Virus record (IMG/VR): IMGVR_UViG_3300033149_005420
Location: 1-39,553 of that record
Direction: 5' to 3' (one strand)
Source: a virus
DNA length: 39,553 nucleotides
Positions 1,964-24,480 of this stretch are shown one piece after another. The position numbers were made by a program, and so were the translations under genes. Each line of letters opens with the position of its first letter. The first letter of the stretch is position 1. The notes beneath the pieces were generated by a model, which ran no database searches, had not been told where the DNA came from, and worked only from the letters and a program-made list of their open reading frames with translations.

Positions 1964-1997
1964 ATGTTCCCCTGAAAGTATTAAAATCGTGTAAAAG

Positions 1998-2026
1998 ATT
2001 AAACACTATTTATAAATGTTTGACAA
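1998..2026 (-). promoter_or_regulatory. Leftward promoter of the primase gene
   Basis: On the minus strand TTGTCA (2026-2021), a 17-base spacer and TTTAAT (2003-1998), each 5/6 to the sigma70 consensus. Predicted start near 1991, giving a leader of about 28 nt before the primase ATG. Its -35 box overlaps that of the rightward promoter, so the two polymerases should exclude one another. It carries the TTGTCAnACA motif shared with the tail and terminase promoters. Confidence 0.6.
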
Positions 2027-2048
2027 GGAGAGTGTAAAATCATACAAT
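2020..2048 (+). promoter_or_regulatory. Strong rightward sigma70-like promoter (drives candidate small RNA)
   Basis: TTGACA (2020-2025), exactly 17 bases, then TACAAT (2043-2048): a perfect -35 and a 5/6 -10, the best rightward promoter match noticed. Predicted start near G2055. No gene begins until 2240, and a hairpin terminator lies at 2096-2146, so the promoter seems to serve a short RNA or an attenuated leader of the early operon. Confidence 0.7.
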
Positions 2049-2054
2049 TCTTCT

Positions 2055-2146
2055 GCTTACAAAAGCCTTTCTTCCCTGAAAGATTAGTGAGCTATAAGCC
2101 TTGGGGATTGGTTGTTAAACTCTTCTAACCTCAAGGCTTTTAATTT
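2055..2146 (+). ncRNA. Candidate phage small RNA / attenuated leader with anti-Shine-Dalgarno loop
   Basis: About 90 nt between a consensus promoter and an intrinsic-terminator hairpin, with no convincing ORF. A 5-bp stem (CTTTC 2067-2071 with GAAAG 2078-2082) displays TTCCCT in its loop, a C-rich anti-Shine-Dalgarno loop of the kind known in some staphylococcal sRNAs. The reverse complement of 2065-2076 is GGGAAGAAAGGC, identical to 12153-12164 directly before the DNA polymerase ATG. Ten bases of it recur before the genes at 6069, 24101 and 24477. CCCTGAAAG matches the primase leader. AAAAGCCTT (2061-2069) can also pair with AAGGCTTTT (2133-2141), competing with the terminator stem. It may instead be a transcription attenuator, or the fossil ribosome-binding site of a lost minus-strand gene. 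Expression is not shown. Confidence 0.45.
2096..2146 (+). terminator. Intrinsic terminator of the leader/small RNA
   Basis: AAGCCTTGGGG (2096-2106) pairs with CCTCAAGGCTT (2129-2139), 11 bp with one G-U pair, followed by TTAATTTATT. The U-run is modest, so read-through into the early operon is plausible. Confidence 0.55.
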
Positions 2147-2181
2147 ATTCTATAATAACTATCCACATTAAAAATAATTCC

Positions 2182-2210
2182 TTGACGATATCAATTAGAT
2201 ATTGCATTAT
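2182..2210 (+). promoter_or_regulatory. Early-operon promoter with a dyad operator in its spacer
   Basis: TTGACG (2182-2187) and CATTAT (2205-2210) are 17 bases apart; shifting the -10 by one base gives ATTATG with an upstream TG. The spacer contains ATATC-AATTA-GATAT (2188-2202), a perfect 5-bp inverted repeat where a repressor would block polymerase. The -35 is good and the -10 imperfect, so an activator may be involved. The first gene, at 2240, follows a strong CAGGGGAG Shine-Dalgarno. Confidence 0.5.
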
Positions 2211-2239
2211 GCTTTTACAAATTATTCAGGGGAGAAAAA

Positions 2240-6044: not shown

Positions 6045-6068
6045 TTAAAATTTTAAGGGGAAGAAAGC

Positions 6069-6347: not shown

Positions 6348-6562
6348 TGAACAAAAAACTAAAAATCTTAGTTGGTGGGGTAACAGGCTTTAATCCTGAA
6401 TATGTAAAAGATCTTGAAGAAGTTGTTGCTTTTTATGCTGAAAATAAAAATTGGCATAGCCACAACATTATATGTGAGTCTGATGTTTGGATAATAGATA
6501 AAAAGATTGGTATCTATGTTGGTGGAAAACGTGCAAGAGAAGTGAGGGAAAAATATGAGTAA
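6347..6562 (+). CDS. Hypothetical small protein
   Basis: A 71-residue protein from the ATG that overlaps the preceding stop; AGGTGG nearby is the Shine-Dalgarno. The start KKLKILVGGVTGF could be a beta-strand and glycine loop, followed by a helix and the end VGGKRAREVREKYE. No motif specific enough for a call. Overlaps the next gene by 8 bases. Confidence 0.65.
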   Translation: MNKKLKILVGGVTGFNPEYVKDLEEVVAFYAENKNWHSHNIICESDVWIIDKKIGIYVGGKRAREVREKYE

Positions 6563-7598: not shown

Positions 7599-9088
7599 AA
7601 CTTAGAGATTACCAATTAAAATCACATGAATTAATTATTGAGAATTTTAAACTTAATAAAAAAGTTGTTTTGGTTGTTATGGCAGGTGGTGGGAAATCAA
7701 TCACAGCAGGATCTTTTGTTGCTAAATATATAAAACATTTTAAATTTGTTTTGATGGTTAGAAAAAGAGATTTAGTTGAGCAACTTGCAAAAGATGCACT
7801 TGGTACTTTTGATTTAGATTATTCAATCTTTATGGCAAATCACCCTAAAATGGATTTATCAAAATCAATTCAAGTTTGTTCAAAAGATACTATGCAAAGT
7901 AGAGATACACTTCCATTTGAAGGTGAAGATGATATTATTTTTATTGTTGATGAATGTGATGAAAATACTGATTATCAAAGAGAGATAATAAAAAGATATT
8001 CAGTAAGCAAAAGATTTTTTTATTTTGGGATGACTGCAACACCTTTTAATGGGCTTGATTTTTTTGATGTAGCAATTGAGCCAATAAAGCCAAAAGAGCT
8101 TTTAAAAAGAGGAATTTTAGTTGAATACATTTACCATGTACCACCAATTTTCAACACTGAAGAACTTGAGGTTATCCAAGGGGAATTTGTAACCTCACAG
8201 ATTAATAAGTCCTTAAATTCTCCAAGAATGATAAAAGATAGTTTTGAGTGGTGGTTAAAAGTTGGTGAAAATCGTCAAACAATGGTTTTCTGCATCAATC
8301 AAGATCATGGAAAAAATGTTGAGGAGTACATAAATAATTACTATGGGATGAAAGTTGCTATCTGCCATGATGCTAATACACCAAAAGAAGAAAGAATTGC
8401 AGGAATAGACGCTTTTAAACGTGGTATTTATCGCTTCTTAATAAATATAGGTTTATATGTGCGTGGCACTAATATAATCGAAATAGGGTGCATTTTAGAT
8501 CTTGCCCCAACGCTTAAGCTGAATAGACACATCCAAAAAGTCACACGTGGATCACGTGCAAATCCTGCTTATAATGATTGTCTTTTAATAGATATAGCAA
8601 ACAACTGCATAAATAATGGGCCTGTATATACTGAAAGGGTTATTGATCTAAGTTCAAACTACAAAAAGAAAAAATCAGATTTAGAAAATGTAATGATGCG
8701 TGTGTGTGAAAAATGCTTTAGAGCCGATGAAACTGCTGCCTTTGGTGTAAAAAATATATGCCCTTTTTGTGGGCACTGCAACAAGCCCATAAAGAAGAAA
8801 AAGTTATCTAAGGATGCAGAAAACAAGATCTTTTTAGAATCTGCATCTGAAGAAGCTATTGAACAAAAAAGAATGATAAATGAATTCAAAAAAGCCTTGT
8901 GGAAAAAGAAAAACATTGGTAAAAGATATCGAAATGATATTGCATTGATATATACACAACAGGATTTTATGAAAAAATACGGGCTTGAAAAAATACTAAA
9001 GATAAAAAAAGCAATATGGCTAAAAGATTCAACAGTTGAAGATTATAAAAGAAAACAATATGTGCCATTAGGGGGGTTAGATGTTTAA
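7592..9088 (+). CDS. SF2 DEAD/DEAH-like helicase with C-terminal zinc finger
   Basis: A 498-residue ATP-dependent helicase or translocase for DNA. A Q-like start (LRDYQ) is followed by Walker A MAGGGKS (about 30-36), Walker B DECD (120-123), TAT (148-150) in motif III, and a second RecA domain ending with a motif VI-like QKVTRGSR (about 315-322). A four-cysteine zinc finger (CEKC...CPFCGHC) lies near 370-395, then a lysine-rich region of about 100 residues. Usual phage members of this class are about 450-550 residues. It opens the replication block and probably acts in origin melting, fork restart or recombination. DECD in place of DEAD/DEAH is within known variation. Confidence 0.88.
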   Translation: MLKLRDYQLKSHELIIENFKLNKKVVLVVMAGGGKSITAGSFVAKYIKHFKFVLMVRKRDLVEQLAKDALGTFDLDYSIFMANHPKMDLSKSIQVCSKDTMQSRDTLPFEGEDDIIFIVDECDENTDYQREIIKRYSVSKRFFYFGMTATPFNGLDFFDVAIEPIKPKELLKRGILVEYIYHVPPIFNTEELEVIQGEFVTSQINKSLNSPRMIKDSFEWWLKVGENRQTMVFCINQDHGKNVEEYINNYYGMKVAICHDANTPKEERIAGIDAFKRGIYRFLINIGLYVRGTNIIEIGCILDLAPTLKLNRHIQKVTRGSRANPAYNDCLLIDIANNCINNGPVYTERVIDLSSNYKKKKSDLENVMMRVCEKCFRADETAAFGVKNICPFCGHCNKPIKKKKLSKDAENKIFLESASEEAIEQKRMINEFKKALWKKKNIGKRYRNDIALIYTQQDFMKKYGLEKILKIKKAIWLKDSTVEDYKRKQYVPLGGLDV

Positions 9089-12147: not shown

Positions 12148-12164
12148 AATAGGGGAAGAAAGGC

Positions 12165-24072: not shown

Positions 24073-24100
24073 AAGTTATAGGCAACAAGGGGAAGAAAGA

Positions 24101-24280
24101 ATGAGCATATTTGATAAAACACTAAAAAACAGCAAAGAAAGAAAAGTTGAACTTGAAATAGTAATTGATAAAAAAGATGATCAGGGTGTTGATGCTTCAG
24201 CAGAAAGAAAAGAACTACATAAAGTAAGAAAACAAATACAAGATTTAGAATTCACAATAAATCTTGCAAAGGAAAAATAA
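24101..24280 (+). CDS. Hypothetical charged helical protein of the inserted cassette
   Basis: A 59-residue protein rich in lysine and glutamate with a helix-turn-helix-like double amphipathic helix but no clear motif. The ribosome-binding site GGGGAAGAAAGA precedes the ATG; ten bases (24090-24099) are complementary to the candidate small RNA. Its stop overlaps the start of the next gene (TAATG). It lies on the opposite strand from the tail genes around it. Confidence 0.6.
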   Translation: MSIFDKTLKNSKERKVELEIVIDKKDDQGVDASAERKELHKVRKQIQDLEFTINLAKEK

Positions 24281-24480
24281 TGAGATTAAAGAAAAATAAA
24301 ACCAATAAAACATCAAGAGTAACTTTTAGATGTGTTGAGGCAGAAGAAAATAAATTGCAGCAAAAAGCAAACATATATACAGATGGAAATTTATCTGAGT
24401 ATATTCTTTTTGCTGCTTTAAATTTTGTTCCAAGTAAAGATGATTTTGAAGAAGAAAAACCAAATGGGAAGAAAGCATGA
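24280..24480 (+). CDS. Ribbon-helix-helix protein, MobC-like
   Basis: A 66-residue DNA-binding protein. The start RVTFRCVEAEENKLQQKA and the second helix GNLSEYILFAALNFVP match the pattern of MobC and related plasmid RHH proteins: beta-strand 'xVTFRxxxxE', helix, then 'SEYIxxxAL'. It has no relaxase partner here, so it is more probably a repressor, and the tandem palindromes upstream are natural candidate targets. ATGA overlap with the next gene. Confidence 0.68.
   Translation: MRLKKNKTNKTSRVTFRCVEAEENKLQQKANIYTDGNLSEYILFAALNFVPSKDDFEEEKPNGKKA

Follow-up and report, generated by a model that had tools for sequence, protein, structure and literature searches.

Temperate phages are known to make RNAs that silence the phage's own genes, most of them acting on a single target. 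The CI immunity RNA of phage P4, a temperate satellite, is a short structured RNA directed against the phage's own early transcripts, as the candidate RNA described here would be, but CI works by termination of transcription in the leader of one operon.

The C4 antisense RNA of phages P1 and P7 is a small phage RNA with complementary stretches in its loops, which blocks translation of the phage's own mRNA by pairing in the region of the ribosome-binding site (RBS) (PMC12197685). The candidate is likewise small and carries loop-borne complementarity around the RBSs of its own phage's mRNAs, but C4 controls an antirepressor in temperate phages, whereas the candidate matches several early and replication operons in phages in which no tyrosine or serine recombinase family was found. 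Its best targets are primase, the first early gene and polymerase, not an antirepressor gene of a temperate phage, and the Rfam C4 family gave no match around the locus at E values up to 5, nor in three relatives at E values up to 1. In small RNAs of Gram-positive bacteria (the Rsa family, RNAIII) an accessible UCCC in a hairpin loop pairs with the Shine-Dalgarno (SD) sequences of several mRNAs (PMC3861533); the candidate shares with them a C-rich loop complementary to several SD sequences, but those RNAs are bacterial, whereas the candidate belongs to a phage, and its loop and the private RBS motif of that phage change in step. T4 RegA, a translational repressor which competes with ribosomes at the initiation regions of many phage mRNAs (PMC3014915), is similarly one regulator of many initiation regions, although RegA is a protein and the candidate an RNA. 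Lambda PreS, a phage-encoded trans-acting small RNA which regulates host dnaN (PMC12197685), is of similar length, acts in trans as is predicted for the candidate and likewise bears on replication, but its target is host dnaN while the candidate matches phage mRNAs. The literature searched, which included few subscription journals, held no report of this RNA or of an RNA directed against the RBSs of several operons in a lytic phage.

The phage genome and the candidate small RNA gene

The stretch of DNA analyzed, hereafter called the window, comes from an uncultured virus of bacteria and has 39,553 bp with a G+C content of 32%. Its primase gene is split between the two contig ends (1-1963 and 38949-39553) and, when joined across them, reads as an uninterrupted protein of 855 residues, and therefore the record is most likely a complete, circularly permuted genome; no end repeat of at least 10 bases was found in the window. 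It encodes a family A DNA polymerase, a helicase, a Mu-type portal, a terminase, head proteins, a tape measure protein and an endolysin. Searches with the polymerase and the primase identified six further distinct contigs:

G001: 3300028045_000003
G004: 3300017989_000342 (with the near-identical G005)
G002: 3300048881_000221
G003: 3300031216_000031
G006: 3300017782_000066
G007: 3300022690_001581

Since no tyrosine or serine recombinase family was found in these seven genomes (window and six relatives), the phage is probably lytic, and the same absence weakens a reading of the small RNA in terms of lysogeny immunity.

The small RNA locus lies between the leftward primase gene (ATG at 1963) and the rightward early operon (first gene at 2240), with the following features:

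2020-2048, plus strand: promoter of the small RNA, TTGACA-17-TACAAT, sigma70-type, matching 11/12 consensus positions
2055-2149, plus strand: small RNA gene with a predicted transcript of ~95 nt, from its fold and a layout shared with six related contigs
2055-2092, plus strand: 5' hairpin in the fold, with outer stem 2055-2060/2087-2092, inner stem CUUUC 2067-2071/GAAAG 2078-2082 and loop UUCCCU 2072-2077 (the anti-RBS)
2096-2149, plus strand: terminator-type hairpin and U-rich tail in the fold; relatives have a different, fully paired terminator in the same place
2182-2210, plus strand: promoter-like site of the rightward early operon, TTGACG-17-CATTAT, a 9/12 match, with TTGACGA kept in G001 and G004

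A sequence-only reading of this DNA had proposed a near-perfect promoter at 2020-2048, a short non-coding RNA ending in a terminator, and a 5-bp stem presenting the loop UUCCCU, and the parts it named are all present in the sequence. The promoter is the best of its region and the sole 11/12 match within the first 6 kb, where the total number of promoter-like sites is as in shuffled sequences (29 versus 29.3), and TTGACAAG is kept at the promoter position in the window, G001, G002, G003, G004, and G006. The RNA (2055-2152) folds with -31.5 kcal/mol against -19.2 ± 3.3 for its shuffles (z -3.8), none of 200 being as good. In the predicted fold the outer stem GCUUAC/GUGAGC, whose first base is the predicted start at 2055, encloses CUUUC-UUCCCU-GAAAG, and the terminator hairpin at about 2096-2139 is followed by UUUUAAUUUAUU. 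A simple terminator scan missed this hairpin because its loop limit was 8, while the fold recovers it. No family was found by Rfam at the gathering score in the whole window, and nothing by ARAGORN.

It may be noted that AAGCCTT occurs twice in the window RNA (2061-2069, 2097-2104), both copies being able to pair with the 3' arm of the terminator; a switch through pairing of AAAAGCCUU (2061-2069) with this arm was considered and set aside, as it is not conserved in G001. The rightward early promoters of the window (2182-2217), G001 and G004 have TTGACGA followed by ATATC-type repeats, a possible operator.

Complementarity to ribosome-binding sites in the window

The RNA is complementary to the following sites of the window:

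12153-12164, plus strand: RBS of the DNA polymerase gene (start 12165), 12/12 complementary to 2065-2076 and adjoining the ATG, -24.7 kcal/mol
1970-1978, minus strand: RBS CTTTCAGGGG in the primase leader (gene start 1963), CTTTCAGGG, 9 Watson-Crick pairs, -17.4 kcal/mol
2225-2237, plus strand: RBS of the first rightward early gene (start 2240), 13 pairs with one G-U, -20.8 kcal/mol
6058-6067, plus strand: RBS of gene 6069 (92 aa, no assigned function), GGGAAGAAAG, 10 pairs, -20.8 kcal/mol
24090-24099, plus strand: RBS of gene 24101 (59 aa), GGGAAGAAAG, 10 pairs, -17.8 kcal/mol
24466-24475, plus strand: RBS of gene 24477 (66 aa), GGGAAGAAAG as read from the sequence, 10 pairs

All six complementarities had been pointed out in the sequence-only reading and are exactly as it described them. 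The polymerase duplex is the strongest among the gene starts of the window, and the leader of 2240 is matched best, among seven RNAs compared, by the RNA of its own phage. Polymerase (12165), 6069, 24101 and 24477 are matched through the other stem arm than primase and 2240. Gene 24477 is absent from the automatic gene list and was hence left out of the statistics. The counterpart of 24101 in G001 (L080:5418) is a similar small gene with a AGGGGGAAGAA leader. Cis-encoded antisense RNAs of the sar, OOP or CopA type lie opposite their target and are fully complementary to it over a long stretch; the RNA gene of the window is situated outside its target genes and, with the exception of primase, its targets are remote, while an overlap with a long primase leader is possible. 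As side observations, a small basic protein, by eye of ribbon-helix-helix or mobilization type, is encoded at 24280-24480 between two RNA-matched genes, in a region forming an isolated rightward operon within leftward late genes, and the second early gene (2500-2823) has a weak match (E 3e-5) to a PHROG annotated as RNA-binding protein, a possible partner of the small RNA.

Whether this pairing exceeds chance in the window alone depends on the null chosen. Shuffled controls, of the kind which the earlier reading had suggested, were favorable in duplex energy, where nine gene starts reached -14 kcal/mol or lower with the real RNA against a mean of 1.8 with shuffles (1/100 shuffles reached nine), and also with the UUCCC core fixed, where the five best duplexes had a mean of -20.3 against -14.5 ± 1.4 (0/600). 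They were not favorable when the opening of the hairpin was counted and net energy was compared with unstructured shuffles, the top-five mean then being unexceptional (32/300). Taken by itself the window would not prove the case, because in net energy shuffles without the hairpin do equally well. In full-length co-folding with 61 gene starts of the window, the five highest ranks went to polymerase, 2240, 6069, primase and 24101, and exact 8-mer matches to RBSs are concentrated in the C-rich loop region of the RNA. The bare UCAGGG core occurs in the window at nine further sites besides the RNA and two RBSs, and has many other genomic matches in the first clade of phages (window, G001, G004).

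Conservation of the locus and of its predicted pairing in related phages

On the strand opposite to the divergent primase and upstream of it, a hairpin with a C-rich loop followed by a terminator is present in the window and in 6/6 relatives; the TTGACA promoter is clear everywhere except in G007, where it is poor. The RNA sequences have diverged to the point of sharing only short islands while the layout is unchanged. The stem under the loop reads CUUUC/GAAAG in the window, CCUUC/GAAGG in G001, UAUC/GAUA in G004, GACUA/UAGUC in G007 and otherwise GUAG/CUAC (twice) and CUAG/CUAG, so that its arms vary yet remain paired in all seven phages. The loop is carried by the 5' hairpin in the window, G001, G004, and G007; in the second clade (G002, G003, G006) it caps the terminator hairpin. 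The C-rich sequence (UUCCCU, CAUCCC or UACCC) is predicted to be exposed in six of the seven RNAs, the exception being G004, whose loop stem is weak and outside the minimum-energy fold. More distant searches gave little. The primase relatives L093-L095 had no obvious RNA copy, a DNA similarity search with the locus in phage records gave no match, and the first rightward protein as query gave no relatives. Pattern scans of IMG/VR for promoter plus loop returned mostly chance matches (the first G001 only, the second G002, G003 and two unrelated contigs). Primase and polymerase alignments in GTDB genomes revealed no prophage or host, and tblastn against phage isolates gave nothing closer than distant primases (19 records) and generic polymerases of family A.

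This layout bears directly on the best surviving alternative, which we nevertheless consider unlikely, namely that hairpin and terminator are an attenuator in the 5' leader of the rightward operon and that, on read-through, UUCCCUGAA pairs in cis with the RBS of 2240. The RNA is indeed upstream of the first rightward gene and codirectional with it in the window, G001, G004, and G007, and it matches that RBS best; the first clade, however, has a separate TTGACG promoter past the terminator, and the matches to primase, polymerase and remote operons require action in trans. In G002, G003, and G006 the RNA has leftward genes on both sides and is thus free-standing, with no rightward operon following it, and an attenuator could therefore fit the first clade only.

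In the first clade UUCCCUGA in the RNA is accompanied by UCAGGG(G/A) in the primase leader and in that of the first rightward gene, while in the second clade the RNA has GUACCCCUA, the RBS has TAGGGGTAC and the leaders have AGGGGTA or TAGGGG. When each of the seven RNAs was compared with each of the seven primase-operon leaders (that of G003 being represented by the 69-residue gene which precedes primase), own pairs had at least 9 Watson-Crick pairs in 6/7, and the observed match was reached by 2/5040 permutations by total match length and 14/5040 by energy; for the first rightward gene the own RNA was the best of seven for 6/7 leaders (2/5040 permutations), although all these figures overstate independence because the phages fall into two clades plus one outlier, the weaker member. 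The first rightward genes of G002, G003, and G006 were noticed through the pairing and then confirmed by gene order, and opposing short frames before them (two in G003, one in G006) were treated as spurious, from which a small selection effect is possible.

In answer to the earlier reading's caveat on anti-SD sequences, a further comparison held the five central bases (UUCCC, AUCCC or ACCCC), shuffled the flanks and scored the two orthologous targets. The real RNA paired better in every genome (joint p 0.0025, 0.002, 0.0085, 0.031, 0.0045, 0.006, and 0.009), with a summed energy of -250.5 against -159.0 ± 10.0 (0/2000); the primase pairing of G007 taken alone was no better than its shuffles (p 0.28). 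The complementarity to the SD regions of several mRNAs thus goes beyond chance and beyond the anti-SD core, and it is the comparison of related sequences which settles whether the pairing seen in the window exceeds chance. Sites with TAGGGGTAC are almost confined to RBSs and the RNA, numbering four in G002 (the RNA and three RBSs), five in G003 (the RNA and four RBSs) and four in G006 (the RNA, two RBSs and one intragenic site). Nested co-folding ranked the expected two targets on top in G001; it also put the first rightward gene at the head of the list in G004 and gave primase the second rank in G007. It did not rank the targets in the second clade, where the loop lies in the terminator hairpin and pairing would have to be loop to loop, which the nested method cannot model.

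Two targets are constant across the relatives, the gene that opens the leftward primase operon and the one that opens the rightward early operon; polymerase is a strong target in the window only. The earlier proposal that one RNA could delay primase, polymerase and early cassette together fits the pairing in the window, but does not extend to the relatives as far as polymerase is concerned. Its broader proposal of a dedicated RNA with a loop complementary to the RBSs of primase, polymerase and first early gene is strengthened by the conservation of the locus, by the compensation in its stem and by loops and RBSs that have changed in step across the seven phages. Further matches in the second clade involve the gene directly after helicase (G002 6120 and 6305, G003 10593, G006 11936) and the genes that begin another leftward unit (G002 669, G003 near 6501, G006 near 7906). 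The matched genes are mostly promoter-proximal early genes, as would be expected for control of the early program.

Small palindromes with a GGGG tip surround several RBSs of the second clade (TTGTA-GGGG-TACAA, CAGTA-GGGG-TACTG, CGTA-GGGG-TACG, and also TGTA/TACA arms), located as follows:

L082:18410, palindromic RBS site
L083:681, palindromic RBS site
L084:3708, palindromic RBS site
L084:6501, palindromic RBS site
L084:10579, palindromic RBS site

Their sequence suggests RBS hairpins which would present the SD in the loop. The same palindromes could instead be operators, a phage repressor binding an imperfect DNA palindrome (TTC-N-GAA or GTA-GGGG-TAC) both at the leaders and within the RNA gene, which we regard as slightly less probable than an attenuator. 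The arms, however, differ from site to site and yet remain complementary, as would be expected of RNA hairpins more than of fixed half-sites; the sites of polymerase, 6069 and 24101 form no palindrome, every target has the spacing of an RBS to a start codon, and the RNA copy is always the C-rich strand within the predicted transcribed hairpin. Lower still we place the main alternative of the sequence-only reading, that the locus is a fossil or unrelated minus-strand RBS beside an ordinary terminator and its anti-SD matches are due to chance. Any anti-SD sequence will match several RBSs, and the net-energy test in the window was weak; we nonetheless reject this explanation, because no reading frame lies at RBS distance in 7/7 phages (no start codon with a frame of at least 40 codons on the minus strand of the six phages scanned, and the same by eye in G007), and the compensated stem, the promoter and the hairpin followed by a terminator are conserved, with covariation of loop and RBS. 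That the RNA binds RBSs so as to activate or stabilize mRNAs, by opening RBS hairpins or blocking nucleases, is the least probable of all, since the predicted duplexes span the SD core as far as the start codon and should exclude the ribosome, even though some target RBSs of the second clade lie within small hairpins.

Proposed mechanism and significance

We argue, with a probability of roughly 70%, that the locus encodes a trans-acting antisense RNA which lowers translation of early and replication operons. Comparison of the seven genomes demonstrates, at the level of nucleotides, a conserved locus with compensated stems and a matched loop and RBS, and from it we infer transcription of the small RNA, repression by it, and the direction and timing of this control. 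Soon after entry, host RNA polymerase would transcribe the RNA strongly and constitutively from its own sigma70-type promoter, and an intrinsic terminator would end it at ~95 nt. Its 5' stem would present UUCCCU, and the C-rich loop would nucleate pairing at the G-rich SD core in leaders of the same phage. From there the duplex may spread to the 3' arm of the stem at primase and the first rightward gene (UUCAGGG...) and to the 5' arm at polymerase, 6069, 24101 and 24477 (GGGAAGAAAGGC). The duplex would cover the RBS up to the start codon, thereby excluding the ribosome and lowering its loading on the first genes of the divergent operons and on polymerase. The outcome would be an RNA brake or timer on replication, limiting or delaying early and replication proteins; alternatively, a cell carrying one such phage may be less permissive to a second phage with the same code. 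A more tentative and rather doubtful extension is that in a lytic lineage one RNA, and not a protein repressor, is the master brake of early and replication operons, with kissing loops between the RNA and hairpin-borne RBSs in one clade and with a private, co-drifting loop-RBS code which could define superinfection-immunity groups.

In the present case an apparently lytic lineage has a candidate RNA that corresponds to RBSs in several early operons, the match being kept while both sides change; such an RNA would be a counterpart of T4 RegA. The match of loop and RBS amounts to a testable RNA-RNA code. It also offers a route by which similar RNAs may be searched for, as short promoter-terminator units with a loop complementary to the phage's own unusual RBS motif.
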